Source: Rhodoferax ferrireducens (GTDB lineage Bacteria; Pseudomonadota; Gammaproteobacteria; Burkholderiales; Burkholderiaceae_C). From it: DNA of 64,000 bases. Position numbers and translations under genes: made by a program. The stretch lies in assembly GCF_003347515.1 (NCBI RefSeq), contig NZ_QEII01000298.1, positions 124,001-188,000 of the forward strand, read 5' to 3'. The notes under the pieces are model-generated. The model worked only from the letters and a program-made list of their open reading frames with translations, did not search any database and was not told the DNA's origin. Below, piece after piece: positions 4,082-43,064 of this stretch (its first letter is position 1; the number at the start of each line of letters is the position of its first letter).

Positions 4082-6118
4082 TCAAGCAATCGCGCTATCG
4101 GGGTGATTTTCTTGGGCGGCCTGAATTGAAAACAGTATCAAGAGATAAAACAGGAAGGCCACTCGAGGCACATCCATCACGCTGCTAACCAACCCGACCA
4201 ACAGTGCAGCACACAATGAGGCCGCCAGATACGGCGACAAAGCCTGTGACAAAGCCTGTGACCGGGCGCGCCCGAACACCAAGTGCCAAAGTGCATACCC
4301 CCACAGCACAGCGAGAAGCAGCAAGCCGGCCACGCCCCGTTCAATCAGCACTTCAAGAAACATGTTGTCGATGTGCCAAGGCAAAAAATAGCGCTGGGCA
4401 GCGGGAAACCAGTGCGACAACCCTTGAGAGAAGTTGCCGTTTCCAAGCAGTTCCTCCCGCTGTGGCCCGATCAGCCTGACATTGTCGAAATCCGCAACTC
4501 CACCCGCGTTGACAACGGACAGCGAGAACACGCCCATGCGTGGTGCATACCAAAAGCCACCTGCCAAAGCCGGGCCTATAAGCGGTAATACAAAGGTTTG
4601 CCATGAAGTTTGGGCTGGTAAGACTCGAATGAATGCCGCTTGGCAGCCTCCGTCGTACAGCAGATGTCTTTCACACAGCGCCAGATAAACATCCGTTTCC
4701 TTCTTCACCCGAACATCTAGACTGACACGCTGCCGCCCCGTCAGAAGCATCGGCACCCGTTGCGTCAACGCATACAGGCCGCCCAGTTCATTCATCGTTC
4801 CAGGACCTCGCACGGTCACAAAGGTGTTCACACGCCGCCCCGGCGCCCACTCACCGTGAAACTTCACATCACCCGAGAATTCGCCTTGAGAACCACGACT
4901 GGCATAGTTTTCCGGCAGACGCCCAAGGCCCTTACCCAGCAGCCAGTCGGAAGACCCCTTCAGCAGCGCAAGGCCATGCTGCCAATGCTCAGCGCGGCTA
5001 ACCAAGTCTCGGTCTGCTCTGGCCAGGCGCTCGGTCATGAATGAGCCTCCACCCAACACCGCTGCCACCTCGGCAGCCAGTGCAAGTATCAGCAGCAGGC
5101 CCGCCTTGGCGCGCCAGCCCTCAAGTTTGTAGCGTCGCCATGGGGAGCTGAAGAACGCCCGGGCATTGAAGTCACACTTTTGAGCCCAGAGCAACATGAC
5201 CAGCAACGCGAGGGAGGCCGCCACGGCAAAGTAGACCCCACGGGCAAAAGTCGTCAGGCAGGCATAAGCGGTAAGTAACGCCAAGGCGGCCGCAGCAGTC
5301 CAGGACACGGGACGACGGGCGGCGAGCACGGCCCATGCGACAAAAGGGGTCGTCAACGCCAGGTAAGCATCAATCGCAGCGCCCCCGACATGCATCTCCC
5401 AAAACAAAGCCACCGTGCGGTAGTGCCTTATAAAATCCAGTAGCCCGGGGAAGGCGGCACGCTCCCACAGAACCGCCAGCGCGACCACAGCGAGCCCCAC
5501 CACCATGCCGCTTGCCAGCCGCTGACTCGAATGCGTTCTGGAATTTTCAATTTCCTGCTGAAGCAAAGGAATAAAAAGCAGTGCAAAAGCCAGACTTTTG
5601 AACAAGCGCAAACTGTTCAATGCATCGGCATACCCGGCAAACCAGTCAAAGGCAAAGCCTCCGGCATCCACGAATCCGCGGTACAAGGACAACAGTCCAG
5701 AGCCAGCCAACAGGGCCGTCAGCGCCAACAAACGACATGGAATTCTTATCCCATTGCGTGCGTGGGACGACCAGGCCAAACGGCCATAGCCCCCCACCAA
5801 GGCGCCCAGCAACAGGAGGTCGAACTCCTCAAAGACAAGCCATCCCGTCCACGGAGAGAAATTCAAAAATGGAAGACAGGCGGGCACCACAAAGATCCAT
5901 AGACCCGGACGCCACGCCACCAGAAGACACCACAGCCCGAAGAGCAGCAATGCCGCCACAGGCCATAGCGGGTGGTGCCAGGCCAGCGCCGCCCCGGCAG
6001 AGAAGCTGCCCAAGACCACCAGCAGCCAAGTTGGATGCTTCAGTGGCCCACCCCTAAACAAGAACCTCAAGACAAACTGGATGCCCCAGGAACCCCTGCG
6101 GACTTGCGCTTGCGCCAT
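4082..6118 (-). CDS. O-antigen ligase/polymerase-like membrane protein with embedded beta-sandwich domain
   Basis: A 678-residue polytopic protein of the O-antigen ligase (Wzy/WaaL) superfamily, expected to polymerise or ligate lipid-linked glycan in the periplasm. About eight membrane segments precede LTTFARGVYFAVAAS, the Arg-containing ligase-type motif. A large periplasmic insert (about 390-590) contains a segment like a carbohydrate-binding jelly roll (FVTVRGPGTMNELGG to NGNFSQGLSHWFPAAQ). The protein ends in further membrane segments (MFLEVLIERGVAGLLLL). It is paralogous to the C-terminal half of the product at 29440-32628, sharing the W.G/EFD.LLLG.. block, FSRG/FARG and NGNFSQGL. The ATG at 6118 makes it overlap the upstream decarboxylase by 65 bases. 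A later start around LKHPTWLLVV, using a non-ATG codon near 6074, is possible. Confidence 0.8.
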   Translation of the reverse strand: MAQAQVRRGSWGIQFVLRFLFRGGPLKHPTWLLVVLGSFSAGAALAWHHPLWPVAALLLFGLWCLLVAWRPGLWIFVVPACLPFLNFSPWTGWLVFEEFDLLLLGALVGGYGRLAWSSHARNGIRIPCRLLALTALLAGSGLLSLYRGFVDAGGFAFDWFAGYADALNSLRLFKSLAFALLFIPLLQQEIENSRTHSSQRLASGMVVGLAVVALAVLWERAAFPGLLDFIRHYRTVALFWEMHVGGAAIDAYLALTTPFVAWAVLAARRPVSWTAAAALALLTAYACLTTFARGVYFAVAASLALLVMLLWAQKCDFNARAFFSSPWRRYKLEGWRAKAGLLLILALAAEVAAVLGGGSFMTERLARADRDLVSRAEHWQHGLALLKGSSDWLLGKGLGRLPENYASRGSQGEFSGDVKFHGEWAPGRRVNTFVTVRGPGTMNELGGLYALTQRVPMLLTGRQRVSLDVRVKKETDVYLALCERHLLYDGGCQAAFIRVLPAQTSWQTFVLPLIGPALAGGFWYAPRMGVFSLSVVNAGGVADFDNVRLIGPQREELLGNGNFSQGLSHWFPAAQRYFLPWHIDNMFLEVLIERGVAGLLLLAVLWGYALWHLVFGRARSQALSQALSPYLAASLCAALLVGLVSSVMDVPRVAFLFYLLILFSIQAAQENHPDSAIA

Positions 6119-11915: not shown

Positions 11916-13115
11916 ATGCCCGTGTCGCTGACACCCCTTCCACGCGGCCCCATCCTGGACTGGTCGAGCTTCAAGATTGTTGACTCCCCGGGCATCGCGA
12001 GTATTGAGAATCTGACTCACACCGAATTTACAACCAGCGGACGCGCTGCCATCTACCATGCCCTGTTGCAACTTCAACTCCCTCCGGAAAGTACCGTGCT
12101 GGTTCCAAGTTACCACTGCCCGACCATGGTTGCGCCAGTTTTGTTAGCTAACTTGACCGTCGCCTATTTTGGAATAGGGGCTGACGGGCTACCAAACCTT
12201 GACACCATTGATGCGGCCACGGCAAACAAAAGTAAAGCCATGATCGTATCGCACTATTTCGGGTTGGCGAGGTCACTCGCTGAAGTTCGTCAATGGTGCG
12301 ACGAGCGCGGGATTGCATTGATCGAAGACTGCGCCCATTGCTATTTTGGCGAGGCCGGCGAGCGACCGATTGGTGCTTGGGGCGATTTTTCGACCGCCAG
12401 CCTTTCGAAATTTTTGCCTGTGCCGGAAGGCGGACTTCTTGCCTCGGCGCATCGTCCTATCGTCCGCCTTCGGCTTTCACCCCCCAGTTTCAAAGCGCAG
12501 CTCAAAGGCTGGGTAGACGTACTTGAGTTGGCAACAAAGTACAACCGATTTGCCGGCATCAACCACGCACTGTCCCTGCTCTTCCAGCTTAAAAATTCGA
12601 ATTTTCTGCTTGAAACAAAGGCGGTGACTACGCCAGATACCACGGCGACCAACATGATGCGGGATTGCGACATGGCACGCATCTCTCAATCTCCACTTTG
12701 GGCCTCAATGACCTTGAAGTCGGTATTGCCCCGAGGACGAATGGTCGTCAGACGACAGGAAAATTTTGCCAGTTATGCCAAGTACTTTGAGGGCGTCCGC
12801 GGTGCAATACCACTTTTCCCCTTGAACACGACACCCTTTTCGAAGATCGCTCCTTACGTGTTTCCGCTCTGGGTCGACGATGCCGACCGTGTTTACCCCG
12901 CGCTTAGAGCCCTGGAACTGCCTGTATTTCGGTGGGACAGAATCTGGCCGGGAACACCCCGTCTTGACCGTGATGTGGGTCCACTGTGGAGCCAGCACGT
13001 ACTGCAATTGCTTTGCCACCAAGACCTTAGCGAAGCGGATATTGATCGAACGTCCCACTCCATACTGAGCTTGCTATCCCCCCATAACGTCCCGGCGACT
13101 GCCGTTGCACAGTAG
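11916..13115 (+). CDS. DegT/DnrJ/EryC1/StrS-family PLP aminotransferase
   Basis: A 399-residue fold-I PLP enzyme of the sugar aminotransferase family. Seen are FTTSGRAAIYHALLQLQL (cofactor pocket), VLVPSYHCPTMVAPVL, IALIEDCAHCYFGEAG with the Asp that pairs the PLP ring nitrogen, and FSTASLSKFLPVPEGG with the Schiff-base Lys. The C-terminus has VFPLWVDDADRVYPAL. It most likely adds an amino group to a keto-sugar nucleotide. It starts the island and is followed after 23 bases by a GNAT-like gene that could acylate the amine. It is more divergent than WecE-type enzymes, and its substrate is unknown. Confidence 0.83.
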   Translation: MPVSLTPLPRGPILDWSSFKIVDSPGIASIENLTHTEFTTSGRAAIYHALLQLQLPPESTVLVPSYHCPTMVAPVLLANLTVAYFGIGADGLPNLDTIDAATANKSKAMIVSHYFGLARSLAEVRQWCDERGIALIEDCAHCYFGEAGERPIGAWGDFSTASLSKFLPVPEGGLLASAHRPIVRLRLSPPSFKAQLKGWVDVLELATKYNRFAGINHALSLLFQLKNSNFLLETKAVTTPDTTATNMMRDCDMARISQSPLWASMTLKSVLPRGRMVVRRQENFASYAKYFEGVRGAIPLFPLNTTPFSKIAPYVFPLWVDDADRVYPALRALELPVFRWDRIWPGTPRLDRDVGPLWSQHVLQLLCHQDLSEADIDRTSHSILSLLSPHNVPATAVAQ

Positions 13116-33766: not shown

Positions 33767-35446
33767 ATGGACGACCTTATGCCCGTGACTGACTCATCCC
33801 TTGCTCTTGGTTCACCCCATTTTTCTGATACGCGCCTGGCCGGACTGGCCAGCACTCAGGGACACCTGGTGGCTTGGCGTGAAGCGGTTGGTAAAGATGC
33901 CGACAAAGCTGCCATCGGGGTGACCGGTGACTTTGCTGTGGGACTGCACGAGCCTGGTGGCCGCTCCTTTCTGGCGGTGGACCGCTTTGCCATTCACACC
34001 CTGTGCTACCAAGTGGTGGATGGACAACTGCGCTTTGCCGCCCGTGCCGATGAACTGGCGAATGCTGGTACTGAGATTGATCCACAGGCAATTTTTGACT
34101 ACCTGTACTTTCACGTCATTCCGTCACCGCGCACCATTTACAAAGGCATCTACCGGCTGCCGCCCGGGCACTATGCCTTGTTTGAAAATGGACAGCTCAC
34201 CGTCGCGCCGTATTGGATGCCGATTTTTGAGGAACAGCGCAACCCTTCGTTCGACGCGCTAAAGGATGAGTTTAGACAGCTGCTGCGTGATTCGGTAGCT
34301 ACGCAACTGGATGGCAGTAAACCGGCCTGCTTTTTGAGCGGTGGCACCGACAGTTCGACCATTGCAGGTATGGTGGCCCTTGCCAGTGGAGAGGTGGCCG
34401 CCAGTTACTCGATTGGTTTTGACGCGCAGGGCTACGACGAAATGGAATATGCCCGTCTGGCAGCCAAACACTTTAAGACTGAGCACCACGAGTATTACGT
34501 AACGCCCGATGACCTGGTACGCAGCATTCCAGTCGTTGCGGCGCACTTTGACCAGCCCTTTGGCAATTCGTCCGCACTGCCCTCTTACTACTGCGCCAAG
34601 ATGGCGCGCGAAAACGGCGTCAACAAAATACTGGCGGGCGATGGCGGCGACGAGCTGTTTGGCGGCAACAGCCGCTATGCCAAGCAAAAAGTGTTTGGCT
34701 GGTATTGTCATCTGCCTGGTTTCCTTCAAAAGGGCCTGATGGAGCCGCTACTGGGCACCCGCGCCGCCGCGGCCTTTGCACTGACCCGCAAGGCTGGCAG
34801 TTACGTGGAGCAGGCCCGCGTGCCGATGCCTGATCGGCTGCAGATGTACAACCTGATTACTCGCCTGGGCGTGAGCGAGGTGCTGACACCGCAATTACTG
34901 GCACAAATTGACACTACCGGCCCGCTAAGTCTGCAACATGAGGTGTGGCACAGCCGCCAAGGCTGCAGCCACTTAAACAAGGAACTGGCCTTTGACTGGC
35001 GCTTTACCCTGGCCGAGAGTGACCTGCCCAAGGTACTTGGCGCCACCAGCTTTGCAGGGGTGGCCGTGGGCTTTCCGATGCTCGATGACCGGTTACTGGC
35101 TTTCTCACTCAAGCTGCCGACCGAGTACAAACTCAAGGGGCAAAAGCTACGGTGGTTTTTCAAGGAAGCGCTGCGCGGCTTTTTGCCCGACGAGATACTG
35201 ACCAAGAAAAAGCAGGGCTTTGGCCTGCCATTTGGCGTGTGGGTCAACACGCACCCTGAACTCAAGACGCTGGCCACCGACTCGCTGCACAGCCTGGCCC
35301 GACGTGGCGTGGTGCGAGCTGATTTTGTGCAGAGCCTGTTGATGCAAAGGCTGCCTGAGCACCCAGGATACTTCGGCGAGATGGTGTGGATCTTGATGAT
35401 GCTGGAGCAGTGGCTGCAAAGGCATGCTTCAACATTCAAGATGTAG
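33767..35446 (+). CDS. Asparagine synthase-like protein lacking the glutaminase Cys
   Basis: A 559-residue protein. The C-terminal synthetase domain is complete: PACFLSGGTDSSTIAGMVAL is the PP-loop ATP site, ILAGDGGDELFGGNSRYAKQ the second ATP motif, and KKKQGFGLPFGVW the C-terminal block. The N-terminal glutaminase domain is shortened and does not start with Met-Cys, so it cannot use glutamine in the usual way. Remnants such as FLAVDRFAIHTLCYQVVDG remain. It could use free ammonia or another nucleophile to form an amide on a sugar acid or peptide. Start at ATG 33767, with ATG 33779 as alternative. It follows the beta-helix gene. The canonical XrtA amidotransferase is a separate gene at 49067-50992. 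Confidence 0.82.
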   Translation: MDDLMPVTDSSLALGSPHFSDTRLAGLASTQGHLVAWREAVGKDADKAAIGVTGDFAVGLHEPGGRSFLAVDRFAIHTLCYQVVDGQLRFAARADELANAGTEIDPQAIFDYLYFHVIPSPRTIYKGIYRLPPGHYALFENGQLTVAPYWMPIFEEQRNPSFDALKDEFRQLLRDSVATQLDGSKPACFLSGGTDSSTIAGMVALASGEVAASYSIGFDAQGYDEMEYARLAAKHFKTEHHEYYVTPDDLVRSIPVVAAHFDQPFGNSSALPSYYCAKMARENGVNKILAGDGGDELFGGNSRYAKQKVFGWYCHLPGFLQKGLMEPLLGTRAAAAFALTRKAGSYVEQARVPMPDRLQMYNLITRLGVSEVLTPQLLAQIDTTGPLSLQHEVWHSRQGCSHLNKELAFDWRFTLAESDLPKVLGATSFAGVAVGFPMLDDRLLAFSLKLPTEYKLKGQKLRWFFKEALRGFLPDEILTKKKQGFGLPFGVWVNTHPELKTLATDSLHSLARRGVVRADFVQSLLMQRLPEHPGYFGEMVWILMMLEQWLQRHASTFKM

Positions 35447-35603: not shown

Positions 35604-35867
35604 ATGGCGGACACGCAAATGTATCGTAGGGGAATCGTCCTCGCAACTGGCGCGGGCACGCGTCTTCATCCTGCCACTGCTGCCATATCCAGGCAAATGC
35701 CGCCGGGCCACGACAAACCAGTGATCGCGTGTCCGGAAGAGCTTGCGTTTCGACTCGGCTATATTGACGCAGTCAAACTGGCCGCTTTGGCTGCACCATT
35801 GGGCAGGAGTATCTATGCACAGTACTTGTTTGACATTCTTCGTGAGCAAAGGGGTGTATATGCTTAA
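35604..35867 (+). pseudogene. rmlA: Internally deleted glucose-1-phosphate thymidylyltransferase (rmlA) remnant
   Basis: An 87-codon frame joins the two ends of RmlA. The start MYRRGIVLATGAGTRLHPAT to RQMPPGHDKPVI corresponds to the nucleotide-binding N-terminus (family: GG.GTRL.P.T...K...P..DKPM). The end ACPEELAFRLGYIDAVKLAA to APLGRSIYAQYLFDIL corresponds to the C-terminal tail. About 200 residues of the catalytic centre are missing, but the frame is kept. One Gly of the GGxGTRL signature is also changed. It cannot be an active enzyme. The remaining 35447-36003 gap has no other gene that I recognise. Confidence 0.85.
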
Positions 35868-36003
35868 AACGAAACACGTAGATCTTCTAACCGATGCAAG
35901 CTTGCAGTGTTCCACTGCGGGGGAAGCGACGGCCCGCTGGCCATTCGTGGTCATGCTTCGAGGTTCTGGTGTACTCGAACCCCTTTGAAGAGGAGAATCC
36001 GCT

Positions 36004-36936
36004 TTGACAAATTTACATTTGTCGGTCGTCATTCCGGTCTACAAGTCGGCTGCCACCCTCAAAGAGCTGCATCAGCGGATTTCTGCGACTCTGGATGCCG
36101 AAAAGATCCCATTCGAGTTGATTCTTGTCGAAGATTGTGGCGGCGATGATTCTTGGCTCGTCATTGAAGAGATCGCGGCGATAGATACACGCGTTAGAGG
36201 TTTCCAACTCAGTAGAAATTTTGGCCAGCATGCAGCCACGATATGTGGCTTTACGCAATCCCGCGGCGACTGGGTTGTGACTATGGATGACGACTTGGAG
36301 CAAATCCCTGAGCATTTGCCCAAGCTCATTAGCAAAGCAGCGGAAGGCTATGACTTGGTGTACGGCATTTATGCAGAGCGTAACCATAAAGCGTGGCGCA
36401 ACATTAGCTCCTCGATCGCGCGTTGGTTGTTCAATAAGGCGATCCCCTCGCTAAACTACACTTATACGAGTTACCGCGTAGTCCGTGGCGACATCGCGCG
36501 TGCATTGAGTCAATTTGACTCCCCTTTCCCCTTTGTTGATGGGTATCTTTCATGGCTTACCGGGCGTTATGCCTCCGTTGAAGTCCCGCACGGTACTCGA
36601 CTCCAGGGAGTTAGCAACTACACCCTGAAGAAACTCTTTACGCACACTGTCAATATCTTTGTTACGTTCTCTGATTTGCCTCTACGCATGGCAACATGGC
36701 TCGGGCTTGGTGCATTCATGTTCGGTGTGATCTGGATGCTTGCGATATTGGTTCGATATGCACTTGGTGGAGTGTCCGTTTCGGGTTTCACGTCGATCAT
36801 GGTTGGTACGTTGATGTTCGGAGGTGTGCAATTGCTGATGCTGGGGATTTTTGGAGAATATCTCGGCCGTATGAACTTCAAGTCATCCAAGAAACCGTTG
36901 TACCTAATTGGCAAGCGTGCAAGCAGGGATGAATGA
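36004..36936 (+). CDS. Polyprenyl-phosphate glycosyltransferase (GtrB/ArnC-like)
   Basis: A 310-residue GT2 enzyme of the polyprenol-phosphate sugar synthase group. LSVVIPVYKSAATLKELH, LILVEDCGGDDSW, LSRNFGQHAATICGF and VVTMDDDLEQIPEHLPKL (DDD metal motif) are typical. Two C-terminal membrane helices (about 225-275) and the tail YLGRMNFKSSKKPLYLI also fit ArnC/GtrB. It should move a sugar from a nucleotide to undecaprenyl phosphate. The start is TTG 36004 with GAGGAG upstream. It overlaps the next gene by ATGA and opens an operon running to 43.1 kb. Confidence 0.88.
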   Translation: MTNLHLSVVIPVYKSAATLKELHQRISATLDAEKIPFELILVEDCGGDDSWLVIEEIAAIDTRVRGFQLSRNFGQHAATICGFTQSRGDWVVTMDDDLEQIPEHLPKLISKAAEGYDLVYGIYAERNHKAWRNISSSIARWLFNKAIPSLNYTYTSYRVVRGDIARALSQFDSPFPFVDGYLSWLTGRYASVEVPHGTRLQGVSNYTLKKLFTHTVNIFVTFSDLPLRMATWLGLGAFMFGVIWMLAILVRYALGGVSVSGFTSIMVGTLMFGGVQLLMLGIFGEYLGRMNFKSSKKPLYLIGKRASRDE

Positions 36937-37595
36937 GTATGGTACCGTGCCGAGTGGTGATTCTTGGGGGGAAAGGGACGGCGGTGAATATCGCTGAGCA
37001 AATAGACCATGCGTATCGAAATTATCAATATCCCATGACCGTAGAGGGCTTTGGCATAGATGACCCTGGTCTCGGCAACAGCATTGCGGGTTTCCCAGTG
37101 ATATGCGGTCTGCACGATGCCTGGCCAAAATATCGAGATACGCAGGTACAGTTCATATTCGCACTGTATAAGCCTGATGTGATGGAGCGGAGAGTTGCGC
37201 TGCTAAGGCAACTAGGTATCCCAACCGAGCGCTACGCCAACTTCATCCATCCCACGGCCTATAGATCAGGCAGCGCCATCTTCGGGCACGGTAACGTCAT
37301 TCTTTCGAATGCCAGTCTGCAGCACAACGTCCGACTCGGAAATCACAACATCGTCAACTCGAATGTAGTGATCGAACACGAAGCCACTTTGAGCAACAGC
37401 GTATTCATAGCCGCCGCCGCTTGCATAGGTGCGCGAGTCGCGATTGGCGACGGCTCATTTGTTGGCTTATCAGCAACGGTCAGGGAGGACGTTTCGATTG
37501 GCGCATACTCATTCGTAGGCATGGCATCGGCAGTTTTGCACGATGTTGCTCCTCGAAACACTGTTTACGGTTTGCCCGCGTCCACCAAATCATGA
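36933..37595 (+). CDS. PglD/NeuD-like sugar acyltransferase (left-handed beta-helix)
   Basis: A 220-residue protein with a Rossmann-like N-terminal domain (CRVVILGGKGTAVNIAEQID) and hexapeptide repeats behind it: GSAIFGHGNVILSNASLQHN, LGNHNIVNSNVVIEHE, LSNSVFIAAAACIGARVAIG and DVSIGAYSFVGMASAVL. The His in the loop IEHEATL is where PglD-type enzymes have their catalytic His. It probably N-acetylates a 4-amino sugar nucleotide. It overlaps the GT2 before it and the PLP gene behind it by ATGA. Confidence 0.85.
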   Translation: MSMVPCRVVILGGKGTAVNIAEQIDHAYRNYQYPMTVEGFGIDDPGLGNSIAGFPVICGLHDAWPKYRDTQVQFIFALYKPDVMERRVALLRQLGIPTERYANFIHPTAYRSGSAIFGHGNVILSNASLQHNVRLGNHNIVNSNVVIEHEATLSNSVFIAAAACIGARVAIGDGSFVGLSATVREDVSIGAYSFVGMASAVLHDVAPRNTVYGLPASTKS

Positions 37596-38569
37596 TTGCC
37601 TACGAGCGCAGAGCGTGTACCGTTCTCCACAACTTGCTTGCTTGTCATCTACCCACTAAACCGATATTGCTGCCAGCAAATGTGTGTCCGATCGTACCTA
37701 TTACGTTGCACAAGGCACGTCGCAGCTTTGAGTTTGTGGATATTTCCCGCGCGACACTTTGCATCGATCATGAAAAGCTGCTTGCGCGCTGGACAGCTTC
37801 GGCAGAGCCGCCAGGGGGGCTCATTTATGTCCGAACCTATGGCGCAATATTCGAGACGGGCGGATTATTTGATGAGATTAAGCGCCTGACACCGGGAGCG
37901 TTGATCATTGATGACCGATGCGCGTGTGCGCCATCGTTTGCGGCAGATGCTTTGCTTGAGCATGTTGATGCGGTGATGTACAGCACCGGCTACGCAAAGC
38001 ATGCTGATATTGGATTCGGGGGCTACGCCTTACTAAAGGATGAGTCACTTTACAGGCGCATCAGATTGCCCTTTAACGTGCGTGACCTTGAATTTCAGAC
38101 AGCGCAACACAAAAAGGCGCTCTCAAGTCGACGGGAATTTAACTACATAGACAATGCCTGGCTGGATTTTTTAGAGCCTGAGGCAGACTGGGCTGCATAC
38201 CGCAAGATGGTGGAGGAAAAAGCCACCCAGGTCTCGCTAGCAAAACAAACAATCAACCGCATTTATTCCAGCAGACTGCCGCAAGAGATCCAATTGTCAT
38301 CGGAATTCCAGGAATGGCGTTTTAATATCCACGTAGCAGACAAGCCTGCCCTACTAACGGCCATTGGAGAAGCTGGCTTATTTGCTAGCGGTCATTATGA
38401 TTCCCTGGACGGATTGTTTGGGACCGGTACAGGCGAAAATGCACGCGCGCTGCATCGGCACGTGGTCAATCTCTTCAATGATCTACATTTTGATGTCGAC
38501 AGAGCCACGTTGCTTGCCAATCTAATTCGCAATACAACAGGCCTTGCACCGAGTCCCTTAGGCCTATGA
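37592..38569 (+). CDS. Divergent DegT/DnrJ-like PLP-fold protein
   Basis: A 325-residue protein with the outline of sugar aminotransferases: ILLPANVCPIVPITLHKARR resembles the PSYTF region, ALIIDDRCACAP the Asp that contacts PLP, and MYSTGYAKHADIGFGGYALL the Schiff-base Lys segment. The glycine-rich N-terminal cofactor loop is reduced, and the protein is shorter than the ~375 typical residues, so activity is uncertain. ATG 37592 overlaps the previous stop (ATGA); the longer open frame upstream is within the acyltransferase gene. It may be an accessory or specialised aminotransferase working with WbqC, which follows with another ATGA overlap. Confidence 0.72.
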   Translation: MIAYERRACTVLHNLLACHLPTKPILLPANVCPIVPITLHKARRSFEFVDISRATLCIDHEKLLARWTASAEPPGGLIYVRTYGAIFETGGLFDEIKRLTPGALIIDDRCACAPSFAADALLEHVDAVMYSTGYAKHADIGFGGYALLKDESLYRRIRLPFNVRDLEFQTAQHKKALSSRREFNYIDNAWLDFLEPEADWAAYRKMVEEKATQVSLAKQTINRIYSSRLPQEIQLSSEFQEWRFNIHVADKPALLTAIGEAGLFASGHYDSLDGLFGTGTGENARALHRHVVNLFNDLHFDVDRATLLANLIRNTTGLAPSPLGL

Positions 38570-39273
38570 AAACCGTCGTCGTTTTGCAGTCCAACTACAT
38601 CCCCTGGAAGGGGTACTTTGACTTGATACACGATGCCGACGTATTCATTTTTTATGACGACCTGCAATTCACCAAGAATGACTGGCGCAACCGCAACAAG
38701 ATTAAGACTGCCCAGGGCAGCAAATGGCTCAGCATACCGGTAGGTACCAGTGCCAATCGGCTCATATGCGAGGTTGCGATGGAGGATGCGCGTTGGCAGC
38801 GCTCGCATTGGGATAGCTTGCGGCAGCAATACGGAAAGTGCCCTTACTTCAAGCTGTATCAGCCATTTTTTGAGGAAGTCTATTTAGACAGGCGGTGGAC
38901 GAACTTGTCTGGACTGAACCAGCACTTGATTCGATACATCTCCCACGACATCCTGAAAATAACCACTCAATTTCGCGATTCGCGGGAATTTGAATTGGAG
39001 GGCCAGAAGCTGGACCGGCTGCTCGACTTGGTCGTTAGAAGCAACGCCACGCGCTATGTTTCGGGGCCGGCTGCCAAGGACTATATCAAGTCGGAACGAT
39101 TTGGCGAACTGGGTATTGAACTGGTGTGGAAAGATTATTCAAACTATCCAGAATATCCTCAACCATATCCACCATTCGGGCACGGCGTATCCATTCTCGA
39201 TTTGTTGTTCAACGTAGGCCCTGAGGCCCCACACTACATTTGGGGTTGGCGCGATGAAAAGGTTTCATCGTGA
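38566..39273 (+). CDS. wbqC: WbqC-family protein
   Basis: A 235-residue member of the WbqC family, named from an O-antigen locus. It starts MKTVVVLQSNYIPWKGYFDL, followed by FYDDLQFTKNDWRNRNKIK and KWLSIPVGTS, the family's most conserved blocks. WbqC proteins commonly stand beside DegT aminotransferases in polysaccharide loci, and an amide-forming step on amino sugars has been a suspected role. No activity can be read from the sequence. It overlaps both neighbours. Confidence 0.88.
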   Translation: MKTVVVLQSNYIPWKGYFDLIHDADVFIFYDDLQFTKNDWRNRNKIKTAQGSKWLSIPVGTSANRLICEVAMEDARWQRSHWDSLRQQYGKCPYFKLYQPFFEEVYLDRRWTNLSGLNQHLIRYISHDILKITTQFRDSREFELEGQKLDRLLDLVVRSNATRYVSGPAAKDYIKSERFGELGIELVWKDYSNYPEYPQPYPPFGHGVSILDLLFNVGPEAPHYIWGWRDEKVSS

Positions 39274-39677
39274 AGCGAGCGCTGACACAGCTTGTGCGCT
39301 ACACCATCGTGGGCTTGGCATCCAATGCGATTGGCTATGTACTCTACCTCGTGCTGACGCGTCTTGGTTTGGGCCCCAAGCTTGCAATGAGCTTGCTGTA
39401 TGGCATAGGCGTGCTGCAAACTTTTGTTTTCAACAAAAAATGGTCATTCCGGTTTAACGGCGCGGCGGCGCCGGCTCTTGTTCGCTACGCCACAGTCTAC
39501 GCGCTGGGTTACGTCATCAACTTTCTAGCGTTCATCCTGCTGGTCGATCAGGCCGGGCTACCGCATCAATGGGTAATGGCGGGCCTGGTCCTGTTCATGG
39601 CCGTATTCTTTTTTGCGGGGCAAAAGTTCTGGGTGTTTCGACAGACTCCTGTCCCGGGGTTGAGGGGCCGAGTTTGA
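39270..39677 (+). CDS. GtrA-like membrane protein (putative lipid-linked sugar flippase)
   Basis: A 135-residue protein with four hydrophobic segments. VRYTIVGLASNAIGYVLYLV is the typical N-terminal GtrA motif, GVLQTFVFNKKWSFRF the conserved middle, and MAVFFFAGQKFWVF the last helix. GtrA proteins are thought to flip undecaprenyl-phosphate sugars made by GtrB. It starts with GTG overlapping the previous stop (GTGA). With the GtrB-like gene at 36004 and the GT-C gene at 41418 it completes a Gtr-type trio. Confidence 0.88.
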   Translation: MKRALTQLVRYTIVGLASNAIGYVLYLVLTRLGLGPKLAMSLLYGIGVLQTFVFNKKWSFRFNGAAAPALVRYATVYALGYVINFLAFILLVDQAGLPHQWVMAGLVLFMAVFFFAGQKFWVFRQTPVPGLRGRV

Positions 39678-40243
39678 GCACGCCTTTGTTGCCGACTGGG
39701 TCAAATGTGGTTTTCAAGCGCTCGTTGTTCGGTACTTACTCGTTCATCGAAAACCTACTTCGGATATTTTTGGAGTTGCTTCCGCATCCATTGCGTTACT
39801 GGATCTTCAAGGCCCTGCTCGCACAGTTGGGCTCTGATTCGATGATCGACTATCAGACCTACTTCCGCTATCCATGGAAGATAAGCATCGGCAATGGGGT
39901 CTGGATCAACCGAGGCTGCGAGTTCTACGGCTCAATGCTGGGCGGCAACGCGCAAATCACTATCGGCGACCACTGTGCCTTGGGCCCGAGGGTGAGAGTA
40001 TTGAGTGCTACGCATAACTATCATCGGCTGGACCTGCCTGACGAGGCCGCGAGCGTGACCATAGGGCACCACGTTTGGGTTGGTGCGGGAGCAACGATTT
40101 TGCCAGGGGTAACCATAGGTGATGGCGCTGTGGTGGCCGCAGGCAGTGTGGTGACACGCGATGTAGCACCTTTTTCCATTGTGGCCGGCAACCCGGCGCG
40201 TTTCTTGAAATCCCGGGAGTTAGACGATGAATGTGCCATTTAA
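39674..40243 (+). CDS. Hexapeptide-repeat (left-handed beta-helix) acyltransferase
   Basis: A 189-residue protein. The start is TTG 39674, overlapping the GtrA stop, with GAGGGG 6 bases upstream; a longer ATG frame begins inside GtrA and is not likely. The C-terminal domain has WKISIGNGVWINRGCEFYGS, ITIGDHCALGPRVRVLSATH (catalytic His), VTIGHHVWVGAGATILPGVT and IGDGAVVAAGSVVTRDV. These are the signatures of WcaF/VatD-like O- or N-acetyltransferases. It overlaps the next gene by 17 bases. Confidence 0.84.
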   Translation: MSTPLLPTGSNVVFKRSLFGTYSFIENLLRIFLELLPHPLRYWIFKALLAQLGSDSMIDYQTYFRYPWKISIGNGVWINRGCEFYGSMLGGNAQITIGDHCALGPRVRVLSATHNYHRLDLPDEAASVTIGHHVWVGAGATILPGVTIGDGAVVAAGSVVTRDVAPFSIVAGNPARFLKSRELDDECAI

Positions 40244-41354
40244 CAAACCATATATGACCGGCAAGGAACTCTGGTACATCTCGCAAGCCCACGCAAGTGG
40301 TCACTTGGCGGGCGATGGCCAGTTCACCAAGAAATGCAGTGCCTGGCTGGAGCAGCGCATAGGCTGCCAAAAGGCGCTTCTCACCCAGTCTTGCACTGCT
40401 GCACTGGAGATGGCGGCAATCTTGGCTGACGTACAGCCTGGCGACGAAGTGATCATGCCGTCTTACACGTTTGTGTCCACCGCCAATGCGTTCGTGCTGC
40501 GTGGTGCCACACCCGTGTTTGTGGATATTCGGCCGGACACGCTCAATATCGACGAGACCAAGATCGAAAACGCCATCACGCCGCGCACCAAGGTAATCGT
40601 GCCGGTGCATTACGCGGGCGTCAGTTGCGAGATGGACACCATCATGGACATCGCGCGGCGCCACAATCTCCTTGTGATTGAGGATGCTGCCCAGGGCATC
40701 ATGTCCACCTACAAAGGGCGGCCTCTCGGCAGCATTGGCCATATGGCGGCATTGTCGTTTCATGAGACCAAAAACATCATCTCCGGCGAAGGCGGTGCAC
40801 TGCTAATCAATGACGCACGTTTTGTTGAACGCGCCGAAATGATCCGCGAAAAAGGAACCAACCGCAGTCAGTTCTTCAGGGGGCAGGTGGACAAATACAC
40901 GTGGGTAGATATCGGCTCGTCCTACTTGCCCGGTGAAATTGTCGCCGCATTCTTGTGGGCGCAAATGGAAGAGGCGGACGCCATCAACAAGCGGCGCCTG
41001 GATATCTGGGCCAACTACCATCAGTGGTTCGCCAGCCTGGAAAAGGCCGAAAGAGTGCGTCGGCCAACCCTGCCCCGTGAATGTGTTCACAACGCGCACA
41101 TGTACTACCTGATTTTGCCGAGCTTGGGCCTGCGCACCGCATTCATTGAGCGCCTAAAGGCTAGAGGCATTCATACCGTGTTTCATTACATTCCCTTGCA
41201 TTCGTCTCCTCGCGGCCAATCGATCGGTCGTGCGCATGGTGACATGACACATACCAACAACACTGGTGAGAGGCTGGTGCGGTTGCCGCTGTGGCTGGGA
41301 CTGGAAGAGCAGCTCGCAGATGTTATTGCCGAGGTGGTGGCCGCTGCGCAGTAG
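40227..41354 (+). CDS. WecE-like dTDP-4-keto-6-deoxyhexose aminotransferase
   Basis: A 375-residue DegT/StrS aminotransferase closest to WecE/RffA. FNKPYMTGKELWYISQAHAS and HLAGDGQFTKKCSAWL are the WecE-type start. TQSCTAALEMAAIL is the cofactor pocket, LLVIEDAAQGIMSTYKGRPL carries the PLP Asp, and LSFHETKNIISGEGGALLIN the Schiff-base Lys. It should convert a dTDP-4-keto-6-deoxyhexose to a 4-amino sugar. This needs dTDP-sugar made by RmlA/RmlB, but the local rmlA is deleted. It belongs to the 36.0-43.1 kb operon. Confidence 0.86.
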   Translation: MNVPFNKPYMTGKELWYISQAHASGHLAGDGQFTKKCSAWLEQRIGCQKALLTQSCTAALEMAAILADVQPGDEVIMPSYTFVSTANAFVLRGATPVFVDIRPDTLNIDETKIENAITPRTKVIVPVHYAGVSCEMDTIMDIARRHNLLVIEDAAQGIMSTYKGRPLGSIGHMAALSFHETKNIISGEGGALLINDARFVERAEMIREKGTNRSQFFRGQVDKYTWVDIGSSYLPGEIVAAFLWAQMEEADAINKRRLDIWANYHQWFASLEKAERVRRPTLPRECVHNAHMYYLILPSLGLRTAFIERLKARGIHTVFHYIPLHSSPRGQSIGRAHGDMTHTNNTGERLVRLPLWLGLEEQLADVIAEVVAAAQ

Positions 41355-41417
41355 CATTTTGGGTTGCACGGCTGCGCAGTTCGTGCATGTTTTATTGAAA
41401 AACGAGGGATTTGTGCT

Positions 41418-43064
41418 GTGGAAAATGTAAACACATCTTCATGGAGAACGGTGCAGATATCGGCTATGCAGAAAACCGACTGGCTCAGTCTTGTTGCGGT
41501 ACTTGCCCTTGCCATCGCGCTTCGGGTTCTGTTTTACACGGGATTTTTTGGGTCGGACGAGGTCACTTACGTGGAGACCGCTGCCAATATCGCGGCAGGT
41601 GACTGGCGTGCTTCCAACTACATTGGGGCCACGCGATACGGTATGAACCTGCCGGTGGCACTTTCCATCTCCCTTTTTGGATTATCGGAGGCCAGTGCCA
41701 ATGTCTGGCCACTATTTTGCTCGGTCGGCGAAGTGGCGATTGTGTTCACCGTTGCACGGTGGTTGTGGAATACCCGAACCGCGATTGTGTGCGCCAGCTT
41801 GCTCGCGTTATTGCCATTGCATGTGCATTTTGCTGGTCGCATGATGGCCGATCCGCCATTGGCCTTTTTCCTGTCGCTCAGTGTGGCGCTAATGCTGCGG
41901 GCTGCCTCTTCGAAGTATTGGTTGAATTATCTTGCGGCTGGCTTAGCTTGGGGCGGTGTGTTTTGGGTCAAGGAATCGGTTGCTTTGCTGTATTTGCCCG
42001 TGTTTCTTATCCTGGGTGCCTATCTCAATCGGATCAGTAGTCGGTGGCTCTGGTTATTCGCTGGAATGGCCTTAGCAGTGGCGGCAAACTGCGTGCTGAT
42101 GAATTTTGTAGCTGGCAACCCCATGTATTTGTTTGTTGTTATGAAGCAGAATGTAACAACCTACGCTGCCGGTGGCTTGTTTAGTTCCGCAATGGCGACC
42201 TCTCCTTGGTATTACCTCCGCTACCTGTTCTTGGACATCAGGCACACATTCTTGCTGGGGTTCCTGGTTGCGGCCGGATCCATCCTCTATGCGCGATATT
42301 TTATACGCGACAAACAGGTTGCATCCGGCGCTCAATTCGTCGTCTTGTGGATGTTATTGCTGGTTGGTATGTTTTCTTTTGCAGTCGTGTCTTTTTCGCC
42401 TGTGAAACTGATCACGAAGCAGACCAATTACATGTTGATCTTCGTTGGCCCGCTGGCGCTGCTGGCTGGCTGGTTTTTGGCCTCGCTGCCAAGGCGGGTC
42501 TTTGTACCTTTGGCTGCCCTGGTTGTCTGCGGATCGGTGGTGCTGGCTGCGCTTGAGCAGCAGGCGATTGCTGTGTTCACTGCCAACAGCAAAGCGGTTT
42601 ATTTTTTCCTGCGCGATCATCCAAGCGCCTACCTGGTAGGAACGACCAACAATGAACGGGCGATCAACTTTTTCTCGATGATGGAACACCGTCGAGAACT
42701 GCGTGAACGAATCATCTCGTTTGGCGAGCTGGCTGCCGTTGAGAGCTCCAATGCCACGGTCAATCTGGCTATCAGAACATCCGGAAAGAATGTGTTCACG
42801 GTGCTCGACTTGCAAAACATCGATTGGGGTAACAAGCCCGGCGGCATAAAGCGCCTTTCAGATGTACCCAAATGCTGGACATCAATGGGCACGTTGACTC
42901 CAGCTGCGCTGGGCAATGGACGCTGGGTAGCCAAGGGTCTCATCGCTGCAGGCGCTGTGCTTCCCGCGAGTCTGCAGCAACGTTATATGTCGGCCCTGCA
43001 ACCCGTGGCAGCGCCTGCCCCTGCGTATTTATTCAGAGTAGACCACTCATGTCTGGCGAGCTAA
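41418..43064 (+). CDS. GT-C membrane glycosyltransferase (PMT/ArnT-like, family 39)
   Basis: A membrane protein of about 548 residues with around ten hydrophobic segments. The first periplasmic loop has the acidic pair FFGSDEVTYVETA that is catalytic in GT-C enzymes, followed by ATRYGMNLPVALSISLFG and PLHVHFAGRMMADPPLAFF. It should transfer a sugar from a polyprenyl phosphate carrier to an acceptor outside the cytoplasm. The frame opens at TTG 41364. I prefer GTG 41418, preceded by GAGGGA, while ATG 41466 is a third option. It ends the plus-strand operon, and 43065-43163 has no gene. Confidence 0.82.
   Translation: MENVNTSSWRTVQISAMQKTDWLSLVAVLALAIALRVLFYTGFFGSDEVTYVETAANIAAGDWRASNYIGATRYGMNLPVALSISLFGLSEASANVWPLFCSVGEVAIVFTVARWLWNTRTAIVCASLLALLPLHVHFAGRMMADPPLAFFLSLSVALMLRAASSKYWLNYLAAGLAWGGVFWVKESVALLYLPVFLILGAYLNRISSRWLWLFAGMALAVAANCVLMNFVAGNPMYLFVVMKQNVTTYAAGGLFSSAMATSPWYYLRYLFLDIRHTFLLGFLVAAGSILYARYFIRDKQVASGAQFVVLWMLLLVGMFSFAVVSFSPVKLITKQTNYMLIFVGPLALLAGWFLASLPRRVFVPLAALVVCGSVVLAALEQQAIAVFTANSKAVYFFLRDHPSAYLVGTTNNERAINFFSMMEHRRELRERIISFGELAAVESSNATVNLAIRTSGKNVFTVLDLQNIDWGNKPGGIKRLSDVPKCWTSMGTLTPAALGNGRWVAKGLIAAGAVLPASLQQRYMSALQPVAAPAPAYLFRVDHSCLAS

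Follow-up and report, generated by a model that had tools for sequence, protein, structure and literature searches.

Which sugar is built, and onto what is it transferred, by a run of genes that combines a proposed flippase and two glycosyltransferases with an aminotransferase, two acyltransferases and a WbqC protein? The question is raised by positions 36004..43064 of a 64,000-nucleotide stretch of Rhodoferax ferrireducens DNA (assembly GCF_003347515.1, contig NZ_QEII01000298.1, positions 124,001 to 188,000), referred to below as the window. Our favoured explanation, held with moderate confidence, is that this cassette makes a lipid-linked, N-acylated 4-amino-4,6-dideoxygalactose (Fuc4N) and, outside the cytoplasm, transfers it to a glycan of the cell surface; it would thus be a three-component transfer system with its own supply of a 4-amino sugar, which it both produces and modifies. 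The basis of this explanation is family membership, gene linkage, module exchange beside WecE and the predicted fold of WbqC. In other bacteria, related gene sets share this frame, with the dressing step exchanged.

The cassette contains eight open genes, all on the + strand:

g1, 36004..36936, + strand: GtrB/ArnC/PgfS-like family 2 glycosyltransferase (GT2), proposed polyprenyl-phosphate sugar synthase
g2, 36933..37595, + strand: NeuD/PglD/VioB-like hexapeptide N-acyltransferase
g3, 37592..38569, + strand: divergent, probably DegT-fold protein, 325 aa, start ATG 37592
g4, 38566..39273, + strand: WbqC, 235 aa, proposed amino acid:aminosugar ligase
g5, 39270..39677, + strand: GtrA, proposed flippase for the lipid-linked sugar, GTG start
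g6, 39674..40243, + strand: WcaF-like hexapeptide O-acetyltransferase, start TTG 39674 uncertain
g7, 40227..41354, + strand: WecE, dTDP-4-amino-4,6-dideoxygalactose transaminase
g8, 41466..43064, + strand: GT-C glycosyltransferase (PMT/PMT_2)

Overlaps of 4 bp were read from the sequence at the junctions g1/g2, g2/g3, g3/g4 and g4/g5, with a fifth at g5/g6 only if g6 starts at TTG 39674, which agrees with the original prediction of an eight-gene run joined mostly by such overlaps. The genes g6 and g7 overlap by 17 bp; g7 and g8 do not overlap, with 111 bp between them if g8 starts at ATG 41466. That start is probably correct, rather than TTG 41364, because relatives in two loci of other genomes (L046 and L047) align from residue 1 of g8. 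The G + C content is 51.4% over 36001-40000 and 55.5% over 40001-42000.

Family assignments and the proposed route

The transfer trio (GtrB-type GT2, GtrA and GT-C) that had been recognised in the original prediction was confirmed by family matches. The protein g1 was assigned to the polyprenyl-phosphate type of GT2 (PF00535, 87 bits for a cut-off of 23.3), its best NCBIfam models, matched over the whole length, being PgfS (172 bits) and ArnC (147 bits). The proposed flippase is g5 (GtrA, PF04138, 63.5 bits for a cut-off of 26.1), and the matches of g8 to PMT_2 (PF13231, 47.8 bits; cut-off 26.1) and PMT (PF02366, 34.7 bits; cut-off 22.7) point to the GT-C component, g8 having no match in NCBIfam at E 0.001. 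One Asp near the N-terminus of g8 (D31) is invariant across the 4 distinct sequences of alignment A1, in which one protein is present twice (L023, L026). For the two acyltransferases, g2 was above the Hexapep cut-off and matched the NeuD/PglD-like model TIGR03570 with 141.5 bits, and g6 matched Hexapep (59 bits) and, under the cut-off of 192, the WcaF-like model NF007797 (107 bits).

The donor sugar is likely to be Fuc4N, judging from the assignment of g7, which was well over the WecE cut-offs (NF008687, 636 bits for 375; TIGR02379, 630 bits for 434.85) and below those for ArnB, PseC and the LegC family. An Arn system was rejected on the scores for ArnB (NF008658, 216.8 bits vs 631) and ArnC (NF007986, 147 bits vs 529); the ArnB/ArnC/ArnT-type route of the original prediction consequently gave way to dTDP-Fuc4N, as indicated by WecE, and its broader idea of a trio coupled to a 4-amino sugar was sustained by the family matches and by recurrence with WecE in other loci. 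The contig also carries intact rmlA (C298:107213-108070) and rmlB (C298:105187-106191) genes, 52-55 kb upstream of g1, so that dTDP-4-keto-6-deoxyglucose should be available. An rmlA remnant lies just upstream of the cassette (35604-35867), with the first 33 and last ~39 positions of the RmlA model left and the middle missing.

From these assignments we infer the reactions, their order, the substrates of WbqC and g2, and the acceptor. RmlA and RmlB would provide dTDP-4-keto-6-deoxyglucose, which WecE (g7) would convert to dTDP-Fuc4N; WbqC (g4) would couple the 4-amino group to an amino acid, which would in turn be acetylated by the PglD-like g2. The sugar would then be loaded onto polyprenyl phosphate by g1, flipped by GtrA (g5) and transferred by the GT-C enzyme (g8), most likely onto the exopolysaccharide (EPS) of the surrounding exosortase A locus, with g6 performing an O-acetylation.

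This locus was assigned to the XrtA/PEP-CTERM EPS type on the presence of exosortase A (TIGR03109, 346.8 bits; cut-off 208) and associated genes: PrsK, EpsB_2, stp1, stp2, stp3, FemAB, TIGR03097 (putative O-glycosylation ligase), TIGR03098, TIGR03099 and TIGR03108 (XrtA amidotransferase) are all over their cut-offs, a set that takes in the exosortase A-associated decarboxylase and acyl-CoA ligase. An asparagine synthase-like gene at 33767-35446 is related to the XrtA amidotransferase (TIGR03108, 238 bits vs 816.9); its match starts at profile position 118, so that the N-terminal glutaminase part looks missing, and homologues of its product (66-82% identity) lie near the sister cassettes L026, L028 and L048.

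Recurrence of the frame and exchange of modules

Sister loci were searched for in an 84,980-species collection with the GT-C family, using two peptide patterns; at least 20 distinct loci were obtained, identical places (L026/L057, L027/L052 and L028/L063) being counted once, and some of these loci, L047 among them, end at a contig edge. By tblastn, the 20 loci contained a GtrB-like gene in 16 cases, WecE in 10, GtrA in 9, g6 (at least 68% identity) in 4 and WbqC in 3. Beside WecE, the dressing module was a GNAT acetyltransferase in half of the ten loci (L046, L048, L053, L057, L064), a formyltransferase in L060, a methyltransferase in L049 and WbqC in L047, L058 and L065; WbqC and GNAT were found together in none of the ten (L047 ending at a contig edge). 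The WecE gene is split in two pieces in different frames at L049:2020-3151 and L060:2490-3571, either as broken genes or through assembly errors in these metagenome contigs.

The proteins of the window are close to those of L046, L047 and L048 for WecE (87-92% identity), g6 (78-83%, over the whole length or nearly), GT-C (64-69%) and GtrA (61-76%), and g1 is just 42-43% identical to its counterparts in L046 and L048. Because of this low identity relative to the genes of the right part, the left part of the cassette seems to have had a different history. In the same genus, L057 carries a parallel cassette beside a counterpart (80% identical) of the amidotransferase-like gene. At L026:717-3259, close to a parallel cassette of the GNAT type, an Antibiotic_NAT-family protein is encoded together with a MaoC/short-chain dehydrogenase fusion, and the two may relate to an unusual acyl group. 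In L058 an EamA-type protein is present, GtrA and GtrB were not found on the contig, and the neighbour of WbqC is an L-amino acid ligase-like protein (L-amino acid ligase domain); in L065 this neighbour is an ATP-grasp protein with a PylC-like domain.

Similar associations were seen on plasmids, where 5 of the 61 records with WbqC were opened. WbqC, GT2, PglD-like and WecE genes are clustered in Rhizobium sp. Q54, together with GtrA, rfbB and an rmlA-type gene, and in Azospirillum brasilense and Rhizobium sp. N731, together with EamA-type transporters; in Solidesulfovibrio WbqC stands beside a different DegT gene, and in the stretch read of the Peteryoungia plasmid WbqC is present and WecE absent.

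Subsets of the cassette genes recur together in other genomes, so their co-occurrence is more than chance, and the outcome that would have told against the original prediction, namely homologues never found together, did not occur. The idea of a wholly unique cassette was rejected, since the frame recurs elsewhere; what stands of the earlier view that the combination was not a described system is that no other locus was found with exactly these eight genes, the window holding one version of a recurrent modular cassette.

WbqC and the divergent, probably DegT-fold protein

The assignment of g4 is clear (WbqC, PF08889, 257 bits for a cut-off of 21.3, its sole Pfam match); the original prediction had listed WbqC and given it no role. 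In its predicted model, the match to BshC is far above all other rows, which suggests a BshC fold. A DegT gene was present in all 14 bacterial WbqC loci that were read in wide windows and adjacent to WbqC in 10; there were 15 such places outside the window, the remaining one (L020) being read over 3.6 kb with no DegT match there. Alignment A6 comprised 31 of 34 sequences (L077, L093 and L096 were left out as near-duplicates). The viral-collection contigs L074, L077 and L078 carry WbqC and a WecE gene 61-62% identical to g7, 150-692 bp apart.

In the accessible parts of three papers, WbqC genes occur in O-antigen, EPS and phage clusters and are uncharacterised or only possibly O-antigen-related (PMC5532660, PMC7848895, PMC5507510). 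A literature search, with most subscription journals outside its reach, gave no report of WbqC activity or of the gene combination of the cassette. We tentatively propose, at slightly short of even balance, that WbqC (PF08889) has a compact BshC fold and works as a ligase, coupling an amino acid to nucleotide-activated 4-amino-4,6-dideoxy sugars at their 4-amino group, and that the cassette is a three-component system exposing aminoacylated Fuc4N.

The protein g3 is less easily placed. It had no match in Pfam or NCBIfam; its phmmer matches were the sugar aminotransferase CalS13 (E 3.4e-5) and DegT proteins of other genomes. In the alignment, the pyridoxal phosphate (PLP) Lys, one Asp and one Ser position, which have roles in the DegT catalytic site, are retained, and there is no His or Gln where the compared DegT proteins have one, so that the catalytic site is incomplete. 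It begins near residue 50 of the DegT fold, the first ~50 residues being missing, and its model, built under guidance of DegT sequences, has moderate confidence (69.5).

Relatives of g3 were searched for in the contig collection (by exact peptides), plasmids, viral contigs, genomes of 60 relatives, 369 of the class, 89 of the genus and 398 of the phylum, and 7 sister-cassette genomes, and no close relative was found in any of them, the peptide scans of the contig and viral collections requiring exact 8-residue matches and thus being able to miss relatives. Besides its own copy, matches at E <=0.001 numbered 1 among the 60 relatives, 2 among the class genomes and 2 among the phylum genomes (one of these being the same place as in the 60 relatives), all 28-31% identical over partial length; the sister-cassette genomes gave one match up to E 1, at E 0.15. 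Two viral-contig scans with distant DegT proteins, made to widen the g3 alignment, gave no matches. We propose g3 as a DegT-fold accessory of the cassette; it may equally be in decay, because no close relative was found.

A conserved mini-DegT protein of ~205 aa was observed in 22 of 30 viral WbqC loci (L071-L100), at most 50 bp from wbqC in 8 of them (for example L071:4351-5004, with wbqC at 5001-5714). Relative to the DegT fold it lacks the C-terminal part and a piece from the middle, but it keeps the SFHxKK lysine region; we know of no description of it, no search having been aimed at one. The position of g3, with its 4-bp overlap before wbqC, is reminiscent of some viral contigs in which the mini-DegT adjoins WbqC; scored against the mini-DegT profile, g3 nevertheless fell outside this group (best domain 0.5 bits). 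Outside the cassette, the window encodes another divergent protein of the DegT family (11916-13115, 399 aa, PF01041, 66 bits).

Alternatives, known systems and significance

Several results weigh against the favoured explanation. The scores of g1 are under the NCBIfam cut-offs (PgfS 172 vs 500 bits; ArnC 147 vs 529), as is that of g2 for TIGR03570 (141.5 vs 160.8 bits), and homologues of g2 and g3 were found by tblastn in none of the 20 sister loci, which leaves their roles without comparative support. A Foldseek search with the WbqC model gave no match at E 0.001, BshC being at rank 2 with E 0.045, and BshC was absent from a sequence-profile search of solved structures with WbqC, so that membership by sequence was not found; BshC activity in vitro was itself still undemonstrated according to the accessible part of a 2015 review (PMC4360819). 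Some of the linkage between WbqC and DegT is to be expected from their both being glycan genes, and ATP-grasp is no marker of WbqC alone, since L064, which carries GNAT, has such a gene too.

It is conceivable, if rather doubtful, that the window holds a plain cassette for N-acetylated Fuc4N (Fuc4NAc), with g2 directly acetylating dTDP-Fuc4N at its 4-amino group, WbqC and g3 acting elsewhere or being passengers, and transfer unchanged. NeuD/PglD/VioB-type enzymes do acetylate amino sugars directly, and a single GNAT acetyltransferase stands at the corresponding step in sister loci; however, in the three WecE loci where WbqC lies beside WecE, no g2 homologue was found by tblastn (L047 being cut by the contig end), and the WbqC-DegT linkage points to amino sugars as substrates of WbqC itself. 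A double modification, in which g3 would add a further sugar aminotransferase or dehydratase and some sugar other than Fuc4N would be formed, is quite improbable: the probable DegT fold and the retained Lys, Asp and Ser positions agree with it, but the His/Gln and the start of the fold are lacking, and g3 without close relatives may equally be decaying. As to the acceptor, lipid A, lipopolysaccharide core or a secreted protein instead of EPS seems unlikely. The PMT and PMT_2 families of g8 also include protein and lipid A transferases, and among the NCBIfam models g1 scores second best with ArnC; on the other side, the cassette lies in an exosortase A EPS locus and adjoins the putative O-glycosylation ligase TIGR03097 (location being weak evidence), and loci of this kind also house several of the GT-C relatives (L046, L052, L058 and L061, for example).

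The favoured explanation, a dressed Fuc4N moved by a three-component system, can be compared with known pathways. In the accessible parts of two papers, such systems consist of a GT2 loading polyprenyl phosphate, a small flippase and a GT-C enzyme transferring the sugar outside (PMC11127046, PMC8035078). The cassette shares this composition with the Shigella GtrA/GtrB/Gtr-type, Gram-positive CsbB/GtcA/YfhO and GT136 pentofuranose systems; unlike those described in these parts, which handle glucose (Glc), galactose (Gal), N-acetylglucosamine (GlcNAc) and pentofuranoses, its operon would also make and acylate a 4-amino-6-deoxy sugar. With ArnB/ArnC/ArnT it has in common the logic of an aminotransferase, a GT2 and a GT-C enzyme and a 4-amino sugar on a lipid carrier, but it has WecE instead of ArnB, falls below the ArnB and ArnC cut-offs and carries no ArnA or ArnD gene. 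It resembles the Fuc4NAc branch of enterobacterial common antigen in WecE, sister cassettes having a GNAT enzyme at the place of WecD, itself a GNAT; in contrast, the cassette of the window has no WecD-like gene, and its sugar would not be used straight from the dTDP form but would travel on polyprenyl phosphate, with GT-C as the transferase.

For WbqC, the predicted fold matches that of BshC, which with MshC makes up the cysteine ligases of bacillithiol and mycothiol synthesis. The joining of an amino acid to an amino sugar is proposed for WbqC as for these ligases, although WbqC, with 235 aa, is shorter than the 4wbd chain (540 aa) and no sequence match to BshC was found. In mycothiol the added cysteine is subsequently acetylated, according to the accessible part of the review (PMC4360819). 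The Wbp/Vim linking-sugar pathway of type IX secretion offers a further parallel: the accessible part of PMC7468200 describes an amino sugar that carries a seryl or glycyl group and ascribes the amino acid transfer to VimA, which is compared there with N-acetyltransferases and pepcterm_femAB. Related pepcterm_femAB and eps_aminotran_1 genes occur in the locus of the cassette; unlike WbqC's proposed part here, the transfer in that pathway, as there described, is by VimA, and the sugar used there is either a uronic acid or the corresponding amide. By analogy with the aminoacyl linking sugar of type IX secretion, the exposed amine of such a sugar could, in exosortase A loci, be the anchor of PEP-CTERM proteins.

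The proposed role of WbqC is, in our proposal, the part most worth following, as it gives a family without known function a testable one. If the explanation is true, 4-amino sugars that are N-aminoacylated or bear another N-acyl group can be delivered by a three-component route, the exchangeable N-acyl module would be a simple genetic source of surface-glycan variety, and the side chains of exosortase-associated exopolysaccharides would become easier to predict.

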